Assembly: GCF_030811555.1 (NCBI RefSeq)
Contig: NZ_JAUSQZ010000001.1
Location: forward strand, 6,569,241 to 6,633,240
Origin: Kineosporia succinea
GTDB taxonomy: Bacteria; Actinomycetota; Actinomycetes; Actinomycetales; Kineosporiaceae
Reading direction: 5' to 3'
Length of the DNA stretch: 64,000 bases
A program made the translations under genes and the position numbers. Every line of letters begins with the position of its first letter. Position 1 is the stretch's first letter. Below the pieces are notes generated by a model that was not told the origin of the DNA, did not search any database, and saw nothing but the letters and a program-made list of their open reading frames with translations. Positions 7,268-41,921 of this stretch are shown here, piece by piece.

Positions 7268-8241
7268 CCCGGCTGAGTCTGTCCGCGGCGCTGAACTCGG
7301 GCCTGCGGCACGTGCTGGAAGAAGACCCGAAGGCCGTGATCCTGGGCGAGGACGTGGGTCCGCTCGGGGGCGTGTTCCGGGTGACCGACGGCCTGAGCAA
7401 GGATTTCGGCTCCGACCGGGTGATCGACACGCCGCTGGCCGAGTCGTCGATCGTCGGCACCGCGATCGGCCTGGCCATGCGCGGCTACCACCCGATCTGC
7501 GAGATCCAGTTCGACGGGTTCGTCTACCCGGCCTTCAACCAGATCGTGTCGCAGCTGGCCAAGATGCGGGCCCGCACCGCCGGGAAGGTGCCGCTGCCGG
7601 TCGTCGTGCGGATCCCGTGCGGCGGCGGCATCGGCGCGGTCGAGCACCACAGTGAGAGCAACGAGGCCTATTTCGCCCACACGGCCGGGCTGCGCGTGGT
7701 GATCTGCTCCGACCCGCAGAGCGGCCACTACATGCTGCGCCAGGCCATGATGAGCGGCGACCCGGTGATCTTCTACGAGCCGAAACGCCGCTACTGGGAG
7801 AAGGGCGAGGTGTCCTCCGACCTGCGGCTGGCACCGGCTTTCGACCGGGCGGTCGTGGCCCGGCCGGGCACCGACGCCACCGTCGTCTGCTACGGCGGGA
7901 TGGTCTCGACGTGCCTGGAGGCCGCCGCCACCGCACACGAGGAGGGGCACGAGCTCGAGGTCATCGACCTGCGCTCGTTGTCACCGCTCGACCTGGACAC
8001 GGTGACCGCGTCGGTCCGGAAGACGGGGCGCTGCCTGGTGGTTCACGAGGCCCCGGGCTTCGCCGGGCTGGGTGCGGAGGTGGTCAGCGGGGTCACCGAG
8101 CGCTGCTTCTACCACCTCGAGGCGCCGGTGCTGCGGGTGACGGGCTTCGACATGCCCTACCCCTCGGCCAAGTACGAGAACCAGTACCTGCCCGACGCCG
8201 ACCGCGTGCTCGCGGCGGTGGACAAGCTGCTGGAGTTCTGA
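7264..8241 (+). CDS. bkdB: branched-chain 2-oxoacid dehydrogenase E1 beta
   Basis: A 325-residue transketolase-like beta subunit pairing with the preceding E1 alpha; the ATG overlaps that gene's stop as ATGA. Landmarks are LGEDVGPLGGVFRVTDGL, the FDGFVYPAFNQIVSQLAKMR interface segment, GGGIGAVEHHSESNEAYFAH and the C-terminal ALVVHEAP-type block seen here as CLVVHEAPGFAGLGAEV. Together the subunits decarboxylate the 2-oxo acid and pass the acyl group to E2. Confidence 0.92.
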   Translation: MTRLSLSAALNSGLRHVLEEDPKAVILGEDVGPLGGVFRVTDGLSKDFGSDRVIDTPLAESSIVGTAIGLAMRGYHPICEIQFDGFVYPAFNQIVSQLAKMRARTAGKVPLPVVVRIPCGGGIGAVEHHSESNEAYFAHTAGLRVVICSDPQSGHYMLRQAMMSGDPVIFYEPKRRYWEKGEVSSDLRLAPAFDRAVVARPGTDATVVCYGGMVSTCLEAAATAHEEGHELEVIDLRSLSPLDLDTVTASVRKTGRCLVVHEAPGFAGLGAEVVSGVTERCFYHLEAPVLRVTGFDMPYPSAKYENQYLPDADRVLAAVDKLLEF

Positions 8242-8242
8242 G

Positions 8243-9538
8243 ATGCCCAGTGAGTTCAAGCTTCCCGACGTCGGCGAGGGCCTGACCGAGGCCGAGATCG
8301 TCACCTGGCGGGTGGCGGTCGGCGACACGGTCGCGATCAACGACCCGCTGGTCGAGATCGAGACCGCGAAATCCCTGGTGGAGCTGCCGTCCCCGTTCGC
8401 CGGCACGGTCGGCGAACTCCTCGTCCCGGCGGGCGAGCTCGTGCCGGTGGGCACGCCCATCGTCACGATCACCGACGCGGCCGAGACCGACAACGAGCCG
8501 ATCGGTGTTCCGGACGACGAGACACCCCCGTCCACGCTGGTCGGTTACGGGCCGGGACACAGCCGTGGCCGCTCGCGCCGCCGTCCTCCCCCGGCGACCC
8601 CGAAACCCGAGGCGACCGCGCCGGTGACCGACGCGTCCACCATTGAAACCCCCGGAACCACCCGGCCCCGGGCCAAGCCACCCGTGCGCAAACTCGCCCG
8701 TGACCTCGGTATCGAGCTCGCGGCGGTCACGCCCAGCGGCACCGGCGGCATCATCACCCGTGAGGACGTGGTGGCGGCTGCGGCACTCCCGGAACCTCCG
8801 GCGGACCTCGTCGAGGACACCCCTCAGGCCGTCGTGGCCGGCGACGGCGACGAGCACGTCCCGGTGAGAGGTGTGCGGGCGGCGACGGCCGCGGCGATGA
8901 CGGCGAGCGCGTTCACGGCTCCGCACGTGACCGTCTTTCACACGGTGGATGTGTCGAGGTCGGTCAAGCTGGTCGCAAAGCTGCGGGAGGACAAGGCCTT
9001 CGAGGGGTCCCGGGTGACGATCATGCTGCTGGCGGCGCGGGCCCTGTGCCTGACCGCCCGCGAGTTCCCCGACCTGAACGCGACGTTCGGCGAGGGCGAG
9101 ATCCTGCGTCATCCGCGGGTGCATCTGGGGGTGGCGACAGCGGCCGAGCGGGGGCTGCTGGTGCCGGCGATCCCCGATGCGGGCGCGCTGGGCCTGCCCG
9201 GCCTGGCCCGCGAGGTCACCCGGATGACGGAGCTGGCGCGTTCGGGCAAGGCCTCCCCGGCGCAGTTGTCGGGCAGCACGGTCACGCTGACGAACATTGG
9301 TGTGTTCGGCGTGGATTCGGGGACGCCGATCCTGAACCCGGGCCAGAGCGCGATCCTGTGCCTGGGCTCGGTGCGGCGGGTGCCGGCCGAGCACAAGGGC
9401 CGCGTCGAGCTGCGCTGGATGACACAGCTGGCGATGTCGTTCGACCACCGGATCATCGACGGCCAGCAGGGCGCCCAGGCGCTGGCGCGGGTCGGGGCGA
9501 TCCTGCGCGATCCCCGGCGGGAGCTGCTGATGGTGTGA
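8243..9538 (+). CDS. bkdC: dihydrolipoamide acyltransferase E2
   Basis: A 431-residue E2 with one N-terminal lipoyl domain (residues 1-80; lipoylated Lys43 in EIETAKSLVE), a proline/arginine-rich linker, a peripheral subunit-binding domain (KPPVRKLARDLGIEL...GGIITREDVV, about 145-180), and a C-terminal catalytic domain ending in the SFDHRIIDGQQGA motif with active-site His and Asp. It starts two bases after the E1 beta stop. No E3 gene follows; the shared lipoamide dehydrogenase must be elsewhere. Confidence 0.92.
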   Translation: MPSEFKLPDVGEGLTEAEIVTWRVAVGDTVAINDPLVEIETAKSLVELPSPFAGTVGELLVPAGELVPVGTPIVTITDAAETDNEPIGVPDDETPPSTLVGYGPGHSRGRSRRRPPPATPKPEATAPVTDASTIETPGTTRPRAKPPVRKLARDLGIELAAVTPSGTGGIITREDVVAAAALPEPPADLVEDTPQAVVAGDGDEHVPVRGVRAATAAAMTASAFTAPHVTVFHTVDVSRSVKLVAKLREDKAFEGSRVTIMLLAARALCLTAREFPDLNATFGEGEILRHPRVHLGVATAAERGLLVPAIPDAGALGLPGLAREVTRMTELARSGKASPAQLSGSTVTLTNIGVFGVDSGTPILNPGQSAILCLGSVRRVPAEHKGRVELRWMTQLAMSFDHRIIDGQQGAQALARVGAILRDPRRELLMV

Positions 9539-35618: not shown

Positions 35619-37388
35619 TCACGCGCGCATCGCCCCGGCCCAGCTCCGCACCGGGGCGAGGCCGACCGGCTGGATGTCGCTCACGTCGATCGTCAGCCGG
35701 AACACCCGCCCCTGACGACGGCTGTTGCCCGGGTCGAAGAAGCTCAGGCACACGTCCCAGCAGTCGTGGTCGGCCCGGCCGTACGGGCTGCGCTCCACCC
35801 CGATCCGGTCGAGCACCAGCCCGGCCGCGGCCGCCTCGGTGAACACGGAGGCCGCCTGCACCACGTTGGTCGCCGCGTAGTTACGGGCCCGGTCGGCGCC
35901 GCTGACACCGGGATTGCGCAGGTCGTGGCGAACCCGGGCCAGGAACTCCCGCAACCCGGCCGGGTTTCCGGCCCCCGCCCCGAGCGCGCCCCGCACCAGT
36001 CCTTCCTCCGACCAGCCGTGCAGGTGCCGGCCCGCCTCCACCTCGACCACCGGGACCACCTGCCCCGACAGCAGTTCCACACGACGCCCGCACAGCCGCC
36101 CCGCCACCGCGACCTGTCCCTCGAGCAGCGCCACGAGCCTTTCGTGCGCCTCGTCGGGGTGGGCCCCCACGGCCTCCAGGGCGTACAGCGGCGTGTGGTC
36201 CTGACTCGTCGTCCAGATCAGCGAGGTGATGTCACCGGGCACGGTGCGCAGGTGCGCGGCCATCTGCAGCACGTCGTCGGGCTGGGCCGGGAACACCACC
36301 CGGCCGGTGCTCACCGGCGGCATCCTCTGCGCGAACGCCTCTTTCCGCGCCGGCGACCCGAAGTCGTACCCGAGCTTTCCCAGGGCGAAGACCAGGCCGG
36401 GCTCCTGAACCCCGGTCAAGCTGAGCGTCACCCTCTCCCCGGCCGCCGCGGCCGGTGGGCCGGGTGACCCGGCGACCGGAGCGTCCACCATCGGGCCCCG
36501 CGAACTGCTGCCGGACAGCACCTGACGCATCGCGCCGGGAATGTCGAGCAGCCCCGACAGCCCGCGCTCGGGCTCACCGTGACACCGCTCGGCCGGGATC
36601 GGCACGGCCGTGTCGATCAGGGCCTGCCGCACCGCCGGCGGATCGACCGCGAGACCGTACCGGCGCTGCAGGCTGAGCAGGAGACCCGCGACACCCGTGA
36701 CGATCGGCGTCGAGCAGCTGGTGCCCTTCTGTACCTCGGTACCGCCGCCGGGTCTCGCGCCGGTGATGTTGCCCCCGGGGGCCACGATGCCGTGATCCCG
36801 GTACCGCGGCCCGAAGTTGCTGAACTTGTACATCTGGCCGTCGTCGTCCATCGCCCCGACCGTCAGCACCGTCGGCAGGGTCGACGGCGACAGCTGCACC
36901 TCGCCGTAGTTGTTGCCCGCCGGGGCGATCACCAGCACGCCCGCCTCTTCGGCCGAGGCCACGGCCCGGCGGATCAGGTCGACGTGGGCTCCCGAGGTCG
37001 AGGGCAGGGCGATGCCGAAGTGGACGACGTGCACCCCGGCATTCATCAGGGTGTCGAACGCCCGCACCAGGTTGAGCTGGTCCGTCAGGTCATGGAGGTC
37101 GCGGCCGGCCGTCACGACCAGCCCCCGGCACCGCGGCGCGACACCGGGAACCGGACGCTCACCCTGCCCGAAGATCTGCGAGGCGATGAACGTGCCGTGG
37201 CGGTGGAGGTAGTCCTCCACGGTCGTGGGCGCGAGCCAGGGCGGATCGATCAGCTCCAGGTCCGCCCCGGCGAAGGCCTCGTGGGAGGAGTCCACCACGC
37301 CCTCGATCAGGCCGATCCGGATCTCCGGATCGCCCCTCGTCTCCCGCCACAGGTCTCTCAGGCCGGGAATGTCAGCTGCCGCCACCAT
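35619..37388 (-). CDS. PatA/PatG-like subtilisin protease, Asp-to-Glu variant
   Basis: A 589-residue cytosolic S8 protease with a second domain like the C-terminal part of cyanobactin PatA/PatG proteases (block FALGKLGYDFGSPARKEAF near residue 350). His64 (HRHGTFIAS), oxyanion Asn159 (APAGNN) and Ser224 (KGTSCSTP) are present, but the triad Asp is Glu29 (IGLIEGVVDSSH). No signal peptide is visible. It is the last gene of the two-precursor cluster. It may be the macrocyclase-like partner or a catalytically altered scaffold. I saw no clear capping-helix insertion between positions 29 and 64 that would mark a PatG macrocyclase. Confidence 0.78.
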   Translation of the reverse strand: MVAAADIPGLRDLWRETRGDPEIRIGLIEGVVDSSHEAFAGADLELIDPPWLAPTTVEDYLHRHGTFIASQIFGQGERPVPGVAPRCRGLVVTAGRDLHDLTDQLNLVRAFDTLMNAGVHVVHFGIALPSTSGAHVDLIRRAVASAEEAGVLVIAPAGNNYGEVQLSPSTLPTVLTVGAMDDDGQMYKFSNFGPRYRDHGIVAPGGNITGARPGGGTEVQKGTSCSTPIVTGVAGLLLSLQRRYGLAVDPPAVRQALIDTAVPIPAERCHGEPERGLSGLLDIPGAMRQVLSGSSSRGPMVDAPVAGSPGPPAAAAGERVTLSLTGVQEPGLVFALGKLGYDFGSPARKEAFAQRMPPVSTGRVVFPAQPDDVLQMAAHLRTVPGDITSLIWTTSQDHTPLYALEAVGAHPDEAHERLVALLEGQVAVAGRLCGRRVELLSGQVVPVVEVEAGRHLHGWSEEGLVRGALGAGAGNPAGLREFLARVRHDLRNPGVSGADRARNYAATNVVQAASVFTEAAAAGLVLDRIGVERSPYGRADHDCWDVCLSFFDPGNSRRQGRVFRLTIDVSDIQPVGLAPVRSWAGAMRA

Positions 37389-37445
37389 GCCGCCACCTCA
37401 CCCTCCTTCTCCGGCCGTTCAGGCCCGCCCAGCTGTTCAGGTGCG

Positions 37446-37724
37446 TCAGGCCCAGATCCGGCCGCGACGGGTTCCCGCCGGGCGGGGAATCACCCCCTCC
37501 TGCGCGCTGCGCTCGACCCACATCCCGTAGTCCACCAGCCCGCTGTCGAGATGGTGGTCGGTCGGGATCGGCACCGGGCGCGGCGTGCCCGCGGTCGGCG
37601 GGGTGGTCAGCCCCCGCCGGGGCACGGACGCCCGCGGGCCGGGCCCCGGGGTCGCCGTGACCTTCGGCTCGGGCGTCTTCTCCACCTCGGGAACGACTTT
37701 GCGCTTGGTCTTGGGTGGGGTCAC
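37446..37724 (-). CDS. 92-residue small protein of RiPP cluster, PatC-like (tentative)
   Basis: A proline- and lysine-rich N-terminal half (TPPKTKRKVVPEVEKTPEPK) followed by a short conserved-looking block LDSGLVDYGMWVERSAQEGV. Cyanobactin clusters carry tiny PatC/TenC-type proteins with a similar GLxDYGxW element; I recall this only approximately. The GTG start overlaps the previous gene's stop as GTGA, so it is co-translated. Function unknown, even in characterised clusters where it is often dispensable. Confidence 0.6.
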   Translation of the reverse strand: MTPPKTKRKVVPEVEKTPEPKVTATPGPGPRASVPRRGLTTPPTAGTPRPVPIPTDHHLDSGLVDYGMWVERSAQEGVIPRPAGTRRGRIWA

Positions 37725-37921
37725 GTGGCCCTCATGCGGTAGTAGGACGGGTAGGCGAAGTACTGCGGGTCGTTGAAGTTCGCGCCGTGCAGCAACCGCA
37801 TGCGCATGGCGACCCGTTGCTCGGGGGTACCGTGACCGACGTCGACGATGCGGTGCGGCTCGAAGAACGACGGACGGTGCACCGGCGCGACCTGGGGCGG
37901 GGTGAGGCTCGGCCCGCTCAC
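37721..37921 (-). CDS. 66-residue small protein of RiPP cluster, PatB-like (tentative)
   Basis: Begins SGPSLTPPQVAPVHRPSFF and continues IVDVGHGTPEQRVAMRMRLL, ending NFNDPQYFAYPSYYRMRAT. The PPQVAPVHR opening echoes the leader of the precursor peptides (APQLVAPVTRR). PatB/AcyB-type proteins in cyanobactin operons are of this size and have an HGxx...NPxxxxxP ending in my memory. I choose GTG 37921 because it overlaps the protease stop as GTGA; a GTG at 37933 is the alternative. Confidence 0.6.
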   Translation of the reverse strand: MSGPSLTPPQVAPVHRPSFFEPHRIVDVGHGTPEQRVAMRMRLLHGANFNDPQYFAYPSYYRMRAT

Positions 37922-39972
37922 GACTCCGGCCACGACCGCACCTCTCCGAGCGTGACCGGCTGCACGTCGCTGACGTCGATGGTGAACCGGAACACGCGCT
38001 TGGCCCGGCGGCTGTTCTCCGGGTCGAAGAAGCGCAGACGCACGTCCCAGCAGTCGCTGTCCTGACGGCCGAACGGGCTCTTCTCGACGGTGATCGTGTC
38101 GAGCACCAGGCCCATCGCCAGAGCGCTCGCGAAGGTCTGCGCGGCCTGGAAGGCGTTGGTGGCGGCGAAGTTCAGCGCCCGGTCGCGGGAGGTGGCACCC
38201 AGGTTGCGCAGGTCGTAGTAGATGCGGCTGAGGAAGTCGCGCAGGCTGGTCGCGACCGTCTCGGCGGGGGCGGTGTCACCGGGCTGGTCGAGCGCGATCT
38301 GGGTGGCGCCGGCCACCAGCCGGTTGACCTCCCAGCCGTAAAGACCGCGGCGCTGGCGCAGGTCGAGCACCGGGACCACCTGGCCGGAGAACAGTTTCGC
38401 GTTCTGGCCGGACATCGCGCCGGGAATCGCGACCCGCTCGATGAAGTTCTCCGCCTCCTCCACGTCGACCTCACCCGCCAGCAGGCGGATCAGCAGGTCG
38501 TAGATATCGGCGGCGTATGGGCCCGACGGTTCCAGCGCGTAGATCGGCGTCAGCTCGAGGTTGAGCGTCCAGATCAGGGCGCTGGCCTCGGACGGGTTGG
38601 TGCGCAGGTGGTCGACCATCTGCCGGGCGTCGTAGGGGTTGGCCGGGACGGCGATGCCGTCGATCAGCACCGGGTCCATGAGCTGCTTGAACGAGTCGCG
38701 GCGGGCCTCGGTGCCGAAGTCGTAGCCGAGGGTGCCGAGGGCGTAGACCAGCTGTCGGCCCGGGTCCTCCAGATCGGCGGAGAGGACGACCTCCGGGGTG
38801 GGCGCCTTCGTCACCGGGGCAGGCACTGTCGTGGACGGGACGACGCCGGCGGTCACCAGGTCCTGGAACGACGGGGTGGGCATGACGGTGGGCCCGGCGA
38901 CGGCCCGGGGGGCCTCACCACAGCCGCAGCCGGGGGCGGCGCTCAGGACGACCGCCTCGGGCCGGAGCGGCGTTTCGGGGCTCGACGTGGTCGCGGTGGT
39001 CTGTGTCGTCGCGAGGTTCCGTGTCGCGGCGGGGGTATGTGTCGTCGCGGGGGTCTGTGTTCCGGAAAGCTGAGTGGTCAAGGCGGTCAGTGCTCCTTCG
39101 ATGTCGAGAACGCCGGCGAGACAGCGCTCGCAGCCTTCATTTCCGTCGCTGGTGGTGCTGCCTGCGTTGCTGCCTTCGGTGACACAGGAGGACGCGGTGG
39201 CCAGCAGGAGCCTTCGCACCCCCGACGGGTCGGGGCGGCTCCCGAGCCGTACCTGCTCGGCCAGCAGCAGGGCCGCCACCCCGGCCACGACGGGAGTGGC
39301 CAGACTCGTGCCCGTACGCCGGGCGGTTCCGCCGCCCGGAACCGCGGTGAGAAGGTTCTCTCCGGGAGCCATCAGCCCCTGGTCGCGGTAGGCAGGCCCC
39401 CAGTTGCTCATGGCCAGGGGCTTGCCGAGCTCGTCGAGGGCACCCACCGCGAGCACGCCGGGCAACGAGGCCGGCACGTGGTTGCAGGCGCACCCGTCGT
39501 TGCCCGCGGCCGCGACCACGAGCACGTTCTCCTGGGCGCACAGCCGCACGGCCCGGCTCAGCGGGTCGTCGGACTCACCGCTGGGGCTGAACTGCCCACC
39601 ACTGACGTTGATGACGTGGGCACCTCGCTCCACGGCCAGCTCGATGCCCCGGGCCAGCTCGAGCTGGGACGTCTTGTCCCGCCGCGCCGAGAACGCCGGT
39701 ACCGACAGCCCCCGGCACCTCGGGGCCACACCTCGCACCGCACTGCCCGGCTGGCCGAACAGGACGCTGGCCACGGCCGTTCCGTGCCGGCCGGGGCGGG
39801 TCGCGGTGCCCTCGGCCGGCCAGACCCCGGTCAGCACGTCGATGGTGGCGCCGGCCAGCGCCGGATGGTCCCGGGCGACAGGCCCGTCCACCACCGCGAC
39901 CAGAATGTTCTCGTCGCCCGTGGTCTGCGCCCAGAGCCGTTCCAGCCCGGGGACGCGTTCGAGATCAGTCAT
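37918..39972 (-). CDS. PatA/PatG-like subtilisin protease with complete triad
   Basis: A 684-residue S8 protease with triad Asp29 (LVAVVDGPVARDHPAL), His63 (GRHGTAVAS) and Ser223 (GTSLATP), and oxyanion Asn158. VDGPV is the form of the Asp motif I recall for PatA. A Cys-rich insertion (residues 160-163 and about 265-285) and a Thr-rich linker (about 290-340) lead to a C-terminal PatA/PatG-type domain (VYALGTLGYDFGTEARRDSF). ATG 39972 follows CAGGAG; a longer GTG start at 40029 is possible. It should cleave the leader from the precursors encoded just upstream. Confidence 0.82.
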   Translation of the reverse strand: MTDLERVPGLERLWAQTTGDENILVAVVDGPVARDHPALAGATIDVLTGVWPAEGTATRPGRHGTAVASVLFGQPGSAVRGVAPRCRGLSVPAFSARRDKTSQLELARGIELAVERGAHVINVSGGQFSPSGESDDPLSRAVRLCAQENVLVVAAAGNDGCACNHVPASLPGVLAVGALDELGKPLAMSNWGPAYRDQGLMAPGENLLTAVPGGGTARRTGTSLATPVVAGVAALLLAEQVRLGSRPDPSGVRRLLLATASSCVTEGSNAGSTTSDGNEGCERCLAGVLDIEGALTALTTQLSGTQTPATTHTPAATRNLATTQTTATTSSPETPLRPEAVVLSAAPGCGCGEAPRAVAGPTVMPTPSFQDLVTAGVVPSTTVPAPVTKAPTPEVVLSADLEDPGRQLVYALGTLGYDFGTEARRDSFKQLMDPVLIDGIAVPANPYDARQMVDHLRTNPSEASALIWTLNLELTPIYALEPSGPYAADIYDLLIRLLAGEVDVEEAENFIERVAIPGAMSGQNAKLFSGQVVPVLDLRQRRGLYGWEVNRLVAGATQIALDQPGDTAPAETVATSLRDFLSRIYYDLRNLGATSRDRALNFAATNAFQAAQTFASALAMGLVLDTITVEKSPFGRQDSDCWDVRLRFFDPENSRRAKRVFRFTIDVSDVQPVTLGEVRSWPES

Positions 39973-40056
39973 CTGCGGCTCCTGAAAGAACGGCTCCGGA
40001 ACAGGCGGCCCCGGGACGGGTGGTGACAAGCACCCGCCCCGGGGTCACGTCATCCG

Positions 40057-40194
40057 TTACTCGTCGTCGTCACCGGCGAACGGCGGGAGGTACGGCGGCA
40101 GCACCAGGAGCGAGAGGGAAGCGCCTCCCTCGACGGGGGCGGCACCGGTGGGCCTGCGGGTCACCGGAGCGGTGAGCTGCGGCATCGTGTTCAT
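40057..40194 (-). CDS. cyanobactin-like precursor peptide 1 (45 residues)
   Basis: The leader contains PQLTAPVTRR, the recognition block EGGASLS is at residues 22-28, the variable segment is LLVLPPYLPP (29-38) and the ending is FAGDDDE (39-45). FAGDDAE is the well-known C-terminal recognition sequence of many cyanobactin precursors. Start ATG 40194 has an AAAGGAC site. The core has no Cys, Ser or Thr, so heterocycles are not expected; Pro at its last position suits PatG-type cyclisation. It lies 84 bp upstream of the triad-complete protease. Confidence 0.85.
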   Translation of the reverse strand: MNTMPQLTAPVTRRPTGAAPVEGGASLSLLVLPPYLPPFAGDDDE

Positions 40195-40319
40195 CGGACT
40201 GTCCTTTCGTCGAAACGGACGGGCCGGCCAGGACACGACCTGGGGTGCCCGGCCCCTGAATCGGTTACGGCGTGCTGATCAGCTCACGAAAGACGCTCCC
40301 GCGGGCGCCTTTCGGGGAA

Positions 40320-40472
40320 TCACTCGTCGTCGTCACCGGCGAACGGCGGGAAGGGCGCCGGGAAGAACATCGACAGCGACGCCCCACCCTCGGCGCTGGC
40401 GGTACCGGCCACCCGGCGGGTCACCGGGGCGACGAGCTGCGGAGCGAGACCGGCGTTCGTGTGCGTGGACAT
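40320..40472 (-). CDS. cyanobactin-like precursor peptide 2 (50 residues)
   Basis: Same plan as precursor 1: leader with LAPQLVAPVTRR, recognition block EGGASLS (28-34), variable core MFFPAPFPP (35-43) and ending FAGDDDE (44-50). ATG 40472 has AAGGAGAA six bases upstream. Leader and flanks match precursor 1 closely while the core differs almost completely, the classic pattern of RiPP precursor duplication with core diversification. It is the first gene of the operon. Confidence 0.85.
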   Translation of the reverse strand: MSTHTNAGLAPQLVAPVTRRVAGTASAEGGASLSMFFPAPFPPFAGDDDE

Positions 40473-40991
40473 ATGACTTCTCCTTCTTTCGGATGCGGAT
40501 TGACTCATCGACCTCCCGTCTCTCCCAGCCGTTTTCGGGCAGGATGAGGAACTGACGGGCGGACGCGTGCGGCGACACCACACAGCGGGCAGCGCGAGAC
40601 ACCGGACCGGTGGAGACCCGGACCGGCGGCACCGCACGGCGGAGGGCGTCGATCAGTGAAACGAGAAGAGATGAAGCGTGCTGGACGACAACCGGGGCAC
40701 TGGCAGGGGAACGCACCTCGAGGGACGCACGAAGCTCACCTGATTCCCCGTTCTGGAGACTGCCGTTCCCGACGAAGACAACGCTAACATGACCGTCGGT
40801 GATCGGAAACCGCTACGCCCGAGTTGTCGCGAGCCAGCCGTGCAGGGCTGCATCATCACCGAAACTCACGTCATCAATAGGCTTTCAGCCTGGTGATCCC
40901 TGTTCTCACAGGAGCCGCACGGCGACGATGATGCGTGAATCTTGCAGCAGTGCACACCTAGCGTGATACCTGCCCGTAGTCCAGCAGCGAC
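40473..40991. other. upstream region of the RiPP cluster, 519 bases
   Basis: No credible gene. It should contain the precursor promoter and the end of the LysR transcript (a weak AGGCT/AGCCT hairpin near 40880). I did not find an unambiguous -35/-10 pair or operator. Confidence 0.5.
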
Positions 40992-41921
40992 TCAGTCCCG
41001 CAGCTGGAGCACCGGCGGCAGCACCGGGTTCGCCAGCGCGGCCTGGCCCAGCGCCTCCCGGAAGGCCTGCACCGCACGATGTTTCGACCGCCCCTTGCGC
41101 ACCGCCGTGAAAAGCACCCGCTGCTGATCCCCCGGCAGCGCGACCAGCTGCGTCCCCCCGAGATGCTCGGCCCCGACCAGCGACGGGATGAACGCGACTG
41201 CGTGCCCCATCCGCACCAGATGGGCGTGCAGCACCGGGTCCGGGCTCTCGAACCGCACCCGGGGCTCGAAACCGGCCTGACGGCAGAGCAGGTCGGCCCA
41301 GGTGCGGGCCGGGCTGTACGACGGGTCGAGCGCCCACGGCGCATCGGCGAGATCGGCCAGGGACTGCGGGCGCGCCGCCAGAAGCCCTTCACCCGGCAAC
41401 GCCAGCCGCAGGCCGTCCCGGACGAGGTCGACCCGGTCGACGCCCGGCCGCACCGGTTCCGGCAGCCCCGGGTACTCCTCCCCCAGGATCAGGTCGAAGT
41501 CGTGAGCCAGCAGCCCTTCGTAGGCCGAGCCGACCTCCCGCTGGGTGATCTCCACCTCCAGCATCGGATGCGTCTGGCTCAGCAGGGTCAGCGCGACCGG
41601 CAGGATGCTCAGCAGCACGGTCTGGAAGGAGGCCACCCGCAGCACCCCACGCACGTCGGGCAGGGCGGCCGACAGCTCGGCCTCGGCCAGCTCGAGCTGC
41701 TCGAGGATCACCTCCGTGTGCTTGACCAGAGTCAGCGCCTCGTCGGTCAGACGGACGCGCCGCCCGACCTTCTCGAGCAGCTGCACCCCGGCCTCCCGCT
41801 CGAGCAACGACAACTGCTGAGAAATTGCGGACGGAGTGTACGAAAGCACCCGGGCAACCTCGGCGAGTGTCCCAGAACGGTTCAACTCATGCAGAATTCG
41901 CAACCGGGACAGGTTGAGCAT
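40992..41921 (-). CDS. LysR-family regulator
   Basis: A 309-residue LysR regulator with its winged HTH at residues 1-60 (LRILHELNRSGTLAEVARVL, YTPSAISQQLSLLE) and an effector domain with FDLILGEEYPGLP. It is divergent from an EamA/RhtA exporter over an 86-bp gap, the usual layout for control of the exporter by an amino acid or related ligand. Confidence 0.87.
   Translation of the reverse strand: MLNLSRLRILHELNRSGTLAEVARVLSYTPSAISQQLSLLEREAGVQLLEKVGRRVRLTDEALTLVKHTEVILEQLELAEAELSAALPDVRGVLRVASFQTVLLSILPVALTLLSQTHPMLEVEITQREVGSAYEGLLAHDFDLILGEEYPGLPEPVRPGVDRVDLVRDGLRLALPGEGLLAARPQSLADLADAPWALDPSYSPARTWADLLCRQAGFEPRVRFESPDPVLHAHLVRMGHAVAFIPSLVGAEHLGGTQLVALPGDQQRVLFTAVRKGRSKHRAVQAFREALGQAALANPVLPPVLQLRD

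Follow-up and report, generated by a model that had tools for sequence, protein, structure and literature searches.

The locus described here raises the question of whether a PatG-type protease can close peptide rings when it is without the macrocyclisation insert and carries Glu in place of the catalytic Asp. The locus lies in a 64,000-nucleotide (nt) stretch of the actinobacterium Kineosporia succinea (NZ_JAUSQZ010000001.1, 6569241-6633240, hereafter the window; the host genome is a single contig of 8.07 Mb) and comprises a cyanobactin-type set of six genes on the minus strand at 35619-40472. On balance, we favour the reading that these genes encode a cyanobactin-type pathway without YcaO, belonging to an actinobacterial lineage, in which the second protease, G, would close the rings cyclo-MFFPAPFPP and cyclo-LLVLPPYLPP.

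A six-gene cyanobactin-type set without YcaO

An earlier note on this DNA had described six consecutive minus-strand genes over this span, and all six open reading frames (ORFs) are indeed intact, in the order E1, E2, protease 1 (A), PatB, PatC-like and protease 2 (G). The features are as follows.

40320..40472, minus strand: precursor E1, 50 amino acids; PF19158 (DUF5840) 29.6 bits, above the Pfam cut-off of 25; TIGR04446 27.4 bits, below the cut-off of 35
40344..40370, minus strand: predicted E1 core MFFPAPFPP, between GASLS and FAGDDDE, placed by position and related precursors
40057..40194, minus strand: precursor E2, 45 amino acids, laid out as E1; under the cut-offs of TIGR04446 (20.6 bits against 35) and of PF19158 (14 bits against 25)
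40081..40110, minus strand: predicted E2 core LLVLPPYLPP, placed by position and related precursors
40009..40044, minus strand: 14-bp hairpin between E2 and protease 1, a possible attenuator judging from its folding energy
37918..39972, minus strand: protease 1, PatA-type (A), in the A-type clade; canonical Asp-His-Ser, PatG_D and PatG_C domains
37721..37921, minus strand: PatB/AcyB/McaB family protein; TIGR04220 75.8 bits, cut-off 55, scored from the alternative start at 37933
37446..37724, minus strand: PatC/TenC/TruC-like protein; TIGR04447 23.1 bits, E 7e-5, below the cut-off of 30
35619..37388, minus strand: protease 2, PatG-type (G), without the macrocyclisation insert and with Glu29 for the catalytic Asp; His64, Asn159 and Ser224 kept
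37302..37304, minus strand: codon of Glu29 of protease 2 (subtilisin position 32 in the alignment)

The call of two PatA/PatG-like proteases was borne out by a hidden Markov model search, in which protease 1 and protease 2 scored 786.6 and 503.4 bits, respectively, against the TIGR03895 cyanobactin protease model (cut-off 421.05). The Pfam models S8, PatG_D and PatG_C all exceeded their cut-offs on protease 1, and protease 2 reached 98.9 bits for PatG_C. The two tiny genes of the earlier note are present and overlap their neighbours by four bases as it had described, through GTGA at the protease 1 stop (PatB start GTG at 37921; a GTG at 37933 is also possible) and again between PatB and the PatC-like gene, but their identity as PatB and PatC-like had been missed. 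The PatC-like gene occupies the expected cluster position, and its copy in a same-genus genome scored 24.0 bits against the same model (cut-off 30). Because active cyanobactin clusters are described in a review as encoding A, G, E, B and C (PMC4663559), the two tiny genes represent the standard small partners, and their identification strengthens the family call. We regard the cyanobactin-type assignment of the six genes as firm at the level of sequence.

That same-genus genome (G009, locus L035; hereafter the sister) carries the same gene set in the same order, with tblastn identities of 74% for protease 1, 82% for PatB and 58% for protease 2. Ratios of nonsynonymous to synonymous substitution rates (dN/dS) between window and sister were 0.15 for protease 1, 0.45 for protease 2, 0.21 for PatB and 0.20 for the PatC-like gene, which indicates that the window G is under purifying selection. 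The family scores and this synteny exclude chance ORFs or a mis-called protease pair.

The note's statement that no YcaO is present was checked beyond the 20 kb that it had proposed to search: no match was found at E ≤ 0.001 in the whole window genome, while 5 of the 14 control genomes gave matches in the same search. No PatF-type match was obtained in the window genome, in agreement with the prenyltransferase-free cluster that had been proposed, nor in any of eight actinobacterial and two alphaproteobacterial genomes, while both cyanobacterial controls were positive. The cores are free of Cys, Ser and Thr, again as described. Heterocyclase-free cyanobactin pathways, namely the anacyclamide and prenylagaramide clusters, are already known in cyanobacteria (PMC4663559), and the gene content fits a pathway that would only cut and cyclise. 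Of the minimal pathway that the note had proposed, with leader cleavage and head-to-tail cyclisation only, the gene content thus stands; head-to-tail cyclisation is not established, given a G without the insert and with Glu for Asp, and the minimal state may be derived.

A recent transfer from a cyanobacterium was rejected, as the A and G proteases of YcaO-less actinobacteria form groups of their own (support 0.999 and 0.972, respectively); among the cyanobacterial matches listed for protease 1, the highest identity was 51.8% across the full length and 53% for the best segment. A viral origin was also rejected: a single-protein search of viral contigs returned no relative, the PHROGs matches of both proteases were confined to the S8 domain, and PatB had none.

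A second protease without the insert and with an altered triad

Searching named genomes with the protease yielded 205 matches, of which the best 80 were kept and correspond to 79 loci. We aligned 149 S8 domains and built a tree of 145, four being omitted as fragments or for missing active-site columns, and the tree split into 92 A-type and 53 G-type domains. The A-type domains were uniform, with Asp-His-Ser and Pro at subtilisin position 225 in 91 of 92 (Ala at 225 in the remaining one) and an Asp-His spacing of 30-36. A long insert, seen as an Asp-His spacing of 69-169, was present in 29 of the 53 G-type domains (26 cyanobacterial and 3 alphaproteobacterial); the 24 insert-free ones were all 23 actinobacterial G and that of Caulobacter. 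Three loci used as a fresh test (L160-L162), read from sequence outside the alignment, all had Glu and a spacing of 34, so that all 26 actinobacterial G examined are without the cyanobacterial insert. L161 also encodes a third, divergent S8 protease immediately after its cluster (7861-9411).

What sets the PatG macrocyclase domain apart from the plain subtilisin fold is, according to a review, a pair of helices known as the 'macrocyclization' insert (PMC4663559). The window G has an Asp-His spacing of 34 and the triad Glu29-His64-Ser224, keeps Asn159 and Pro225, and retains the subtilisin fold in its predicted structure. It departs from PatG macrocyclases in the insert and in the Asp-His-Ser triad and is, on these two sequence features, a non-standard PatG macrocyclase. 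Glu for Asp was found in 8 of the 53 G: those of the window, L035, L054, L058, L148, L153, L154 and the cyanobacterium Oscillatoria princeps (L088). All eight have an open frame, His and the oxyanion Asn, and seven have Ser (Cys in L154). At L153, only the C-terminal part of the A protease was present and no precursor was found.

Other members of the clade of the window G are changed further. Nine of the 53 G carry Cys for the catalytic Ser (L102, L103, L124, L149, L150, L151, L152, L154 and L155; L103 and L150 are near-identical, at 99.6% for the second protease, and both are counted), and all nine are also changed at Pro225, to Ala in six and to Ser in three; L148 is a Ser enzyme with Ala at 225. 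Microtetraspora and Nonomuraea are among the genera with a natural Cys enzyme. The order of active sites in the tree was DHSP (Streptomyces), EHSP, EHSA, EHCS and then DHCS/DHCA, with low support (0.19-0.57) at several inner nodes. None of the five Cys-type G scanned (L102, L124, L151, L152 and L154) gave a PatG_C match. A GNAT match was obtained in L154 and, below the cut-off, in L124; the Glu-type L153 has a GNAT match and no PatG_C match, and L096 and L148 retain PatG_C.

The double substitution S221C/P225A turns subtilisin into subtiligase, in which S221C prefers amine over water and P225A restores activity (PMC7921005). No report of a natural subtiligase was found in the open-licence literature; an engineered 'PatG-subtiligase' exists (PMC4663559).

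Precursors and predicted rings

Both precursors terminate in FAGDDDE, in line with the FAGDD-type endings read earlier, and the conservation of their design that the note had made a point of was found in other actinobacteria. Related precursors have a ..P[VI]xR leader motif; a G[VA]xxS-like site comes next, and the variable core lies between it and FA[GDE], which acidic residues follow. This layout of site, core and FA[GDE] recurs across loci. Its site is similar to the consensus quoted for PatA, G(L/V)E(A/P)S (PMC10885120). A Nonomuraea precursor repeats the layout in three cassettes (EQS-EWGSFRFP-FAGVEQS-LAWDGSRP-FAGVEQS-VAGNFRVP-FAGEGDE), and the core IFGGITWKDIP is identical between differing flanks in L154 (3358-3516) and L162 (3518-3676), which belong to two different family groups. 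Because the cassettes and this common core place the borders, we predict MFFPAPFPP and LLVLPPYLPP as the window cores. The ring masses calculated earlier, 1103.69 and 1032.50, were reproduced: the computed [M+H]+ is 1032.501 for cyclo-MFFPAPFPP and 1103.686 for cyclo-LLVLPPYLPP.

Pro precedes FA[GDE] in both window cores and in 12 of 13 YcaO-less, methyltransferase-free actinobacterial clusters with a readable precursor. A strict rule that the core always ends in Pro where no methyltransferase is present fails once, in L161, which ends in Ala and is methyltransferase-free over 13.5 kb. The sister precursors end in FPFGPPLLPP-FAGDDDE and FGFPLPLLPP-FAGEGDE. At L124, a second ORF (8263-8463) ends in FAGEGDE without a recognisable leader and is possibly a decayed precursor.

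A proposed route to the rings and its alternatives

Judged from these features, macrocyclisation by the unusual window G is likely. Protease A would cut each precursor after ..GASLS and free the amino end of the core; protease G would then recognise FAGDDDE and form an acyl-enzyme through Ser224 at the C-terminal Pro of the core, which the free amino end would displace to give cyclo-MFFPAPFPP and cyclo-LLVLPPYLPP. Because the window G is without the lid of insert helices, we infer that its altered triad, with Glu for Asp, would favour amine over water, and the combination of Cys with Ala or Ser would be expected to do the same in relatives of its clade. If anything takes over the role of the lid, PatB and PatC are candidates. 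The reading of G as a ligase is drawn because those nine Cys-type enzymes, with Ala or Ser at 225, belong to the same clade and recall the S221C/P225A chemistry (PMC7921005).

Several points weigh against this reading. The scores of E2, of the PatC-like protein and of one PatG_D fall under curated cut-offs, and the window G is without the very insert that is named as a macrocyclisation feature of PatG (PMC4663559). The replacement of Asp by Glu may simply weaken the enzyme, and no source was found stating that it favours ligation. Nine insert-free G keep the canonical Asp-His-Ser-Pro (seven contigs of uncultured actinobacteria, Streptomyces L096 and Caulobacter), so that the insert can be lost without a change in the triad, and a rule that its loss needs an altered triad fails. 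G also evolves faster than A (dN/dS 0.45 versus 0.15). For the subtiligase part, the literature on position 225 is mixed: early work is cited in which Ala was the sole active residue, Ser, Asn, Asp, Cys and Gly beat Ala in a modified enzyme (PMC7921005), and only Ala and Gly were tolerated in another screen (PMC9126251). For the borosin comparison made below, the nearest NCBIfam model of the sister methylase is YabN, at 49.1 bits far under the cut-off of 525.

The best of the alternatives, which we nevertheless consider unlikely, is that G trims FAGDDDE and hydrolyses the acyl-enzyme to release linear proline-rich peptides. PatG requires Pro or thiazoline, and the retention of Pro at the end of the window cores speaks for ring closure instead. 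The missing insert would suit hydrolysis, and linear cyanobactins exist (PMC4663559), but, by extension from subtiligase (PMC7921005), little hydrolysis would be expected of the Cys-type enzymes in the clade of the window G. It is quite improbable that G is a non-catalytic or vestigial partner, with protease A, or nothing, making both cuts: the replaced catalytic Asp and the dN/dS of G relative to that of A would agree with this, but the Glu-type enzymes keep His and the oxyanion Asn without exception and Ser in all except the Cys enzyme L154, their frames are open, and Glu occurs specifically in all six methyltransferase clusters with a protease-type G, a pattern that is not random decay. That the cluster is silent or decaying, with no product in the window strain, is very improbable: it is patchy (proteases over the family cut-off in two of six same-genus genomes, the window included), the methyltransferase was not found in the window genome and no sigma-70-type promoter was found in 39900-41000, but all ORFs are intact, dN/dS is 0.15-0.45 for the four non-precursor genes, and the promoter scan covers no other promoter types.

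A borosin-type methyltransferase in sister clusters

In the sister, a TP-methylase gene (PF00590 38.8 bits, cut-off 27.8) follows G with a 4-base overlap and is itself followed by a flavin adenine dinucleotide (FAD)-monooxygenase gene. All 25 PDB matches of this methylase (E ≤ 0.01) were borosin alpha-N-methyltransferases, including SonM (the best, E 1.5e-15), dbOphM, OphA and MroMA. Copies occur at 56-59% identity in L054, L058 and L148 and at 62-68% in L160, and more distant methylases occur in the Oscillatoria cyanobactin clusters L088 (15188-16021, O. princeps; E 3.8e-59 against dbOphM) and L090 (12847-13701, PCC 10802; seen by tblastn only). With the sister protein as query, no borosin-type N-methyltransferase was matched in the window genome.

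Among methylase clusters with an S8 domain in G, all 6 (L035, L054, L058, L148, L088 and L160) have Glu at position 32, compared with 3 of the 48 tree-set G without a methylase in the locus, the window included; L161 and L162, outside the tree set, also have Glu without a methylase. The rule that Glu occurs only with a methyltransferase fails in the window, L153, L154, L161 and L162. The core ends of the YcaO-less actinobacterial methylase clusters are Pro in L035 and Met, Thr, Ile and Ser in L054, L058, L148 and L160; in the two Oscillatoria loci, all nine printed precursors have Pro before FAGDDAE. A general rule that the methyltransferase replaces Pro therefore fails in L035 and in both Oscillatoria loci, and N-methylation might replace the core-end Pro in part of the actinobacterial branch, as a hypothesis from few and related cases.

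Because the same-genus cluster has an N-methyltransferase gene and the window genome is without it, the minimal pathway of the window may be a derived state, and backbone N-methylation was probably an ancestral step that was lost in the window strain. More tentatively, and with slightly less than even confidence, we propose a wider view: an actinobacterial ring-closing branch without lid helices that would work through changed catalytic machinery, a natural arrival at subtiligase chemistry, with part of the branch joining borosin N-methylation and the window having lost it.

Genomic setting, distribution and regulation

The window and sister clusters are both flanked by a LysR gene on one side and a TetR/MFS block on the other, and the window is without both the methylase and the FAD-monooxygenase at the place where the sister has them; one deletion could account for both losses. 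In the window, a 31-residue match beside TetR was not accepted as a remnant of the FAD-monooxygenase gene, because it runs antisense to the start of TetR, and TetR accounts for it. In the same-genus loci L050 and L051, LysR, FAD-monooxygenase, TetR and MFS are present with no cluster between them, and L048 and L049 keep TetR and MFS, with LysR not in the fetched stretch.

At the level of the order, at least 2 of 297 genomes matched the PatB model, both belonging to this genus; at that of the phylum, at least 1 of 396 did (the window's own). By family group, there were at least 12 of 341 for Nonomuraea pusilla, at least 3 of 390 for Gandjariella and at least 1 of 394 for Streptomyces NBRC 110611 (that genome itself). 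These counts are lower bounds: in most genomes scoring was limited to the first candidates, and the genome of Gandjariella itself went undetected despite a PatB-like stretch at its locus. YcaO-less relatives were found in six named actinobacterial genera and several further genomes; the named clusters, YcaO-free in the fetched stretch, are those of Actinomadura craniellae, Gandjariella thermophila, Streptomyces NBRC 110611, Actinoallomurus purpureus, Microtetraspora fusca and Nonomuraea pusilla. YcaO and SagB are both present in seven contigs from uncultured actinobacteria. L113 and L120 are labelled as a Bifidobacterium breve group of metagenome-assembled genomes, yet their proteases are those of other uncultured actinobacteria, and the labels look doubtful. 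On two Streptomyces plasmids (L039 and L040), PatA-related S8 proteases lie beside BTAD-type regulators, with PatB not annotated in the stretch shown.

The 84-nt gap between E2 and protease 1, which contains the 14-bp hairpin, folds with -48.4 kcal/mol (z -4.4), while the E1-E2 gap is unremarkable (z -0.87). The sister has strong hairpins of differing sequence after both precursors (z -5.0 and -2.8), and such hairpins may set precursor output above enzyme output. Stretches resembling a Shine-Dalgarno sequence lie before E1, E2 and both proteases; the promoter/terminator scan found no T-run terminator.

Relation to known systems

Gene sets of this kind are known chiefly from cyanobacteria. Their presence in an actinobacterium is itself less new, as cyanobactin-type genes have been noted in Saccharopolyspora sp. 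NFXS83 (PMC10145562). A Streptomyces 'cyanobactin-like' call rests only on the PatG C-terminal domain (PMC7369419), and a cyanobactin peptidase gene is given for Roseomonas oryzae (PMC8776678); the relevant passages of these papers do not discuss active sites. New are the insert-free, re-built active sites of G and the borosin partnership of relatives.

Cyanobactin macrocyclases are tools for making cyclic peptides, and one limit named for this use is that PatG is slow (PMC4663559). A natural insert-free branch with substitutions of the subtiligase kind would test the need for the lid and could supply better ring-closing enzymes, for which the window, with two Pro-terminated cores, two proteases and two small proteins, would be a very simple test system. 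Omphalotin is an N-methylated ring; the borosin/cyanobactin branch, if true, would give bacteria their own counterparts of omphalotin-like rings. Clusters that join a borosin methyltransferase to cyanobactin proteases would also predict end products that split-borosin pathways lacked in 2021 (PMC8429565).

The anacyclamide, piricyclamide and prenylagaramide systems (Acy/Pir/Pag) share with the window the A, B, C, E and G set (C being PatC-like in the window), the missing heterocyclase and FAGDD-type tails, and the window precursors resemble their model TIGR04446, yet fall below its cut-off; the window differs by having no PatF match, an insert-free G with Glu for Asp, and an actinobacterial host. 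Compared with the PatG macrocyclase (PDB 4akt), the window G has an Asp-His spacing of 34 rather than the 69-169 of insert-bearing G, Glu for Asp and no oxidase domain. The likeness to split borosins of the SonM/OphMA type lies in the methyltransferase of the sister cluster, which is joined there to cyanobactin proteases and has no match in the window genome. The changes engineered into subtiligase occur naturally in nine relatives of the window G, as S221C with P225A or P225S within clusters for ribosomally synthesised and post-translationally modified peptides (RiPPs), whereas the window G itself keeps Ser and Pro.

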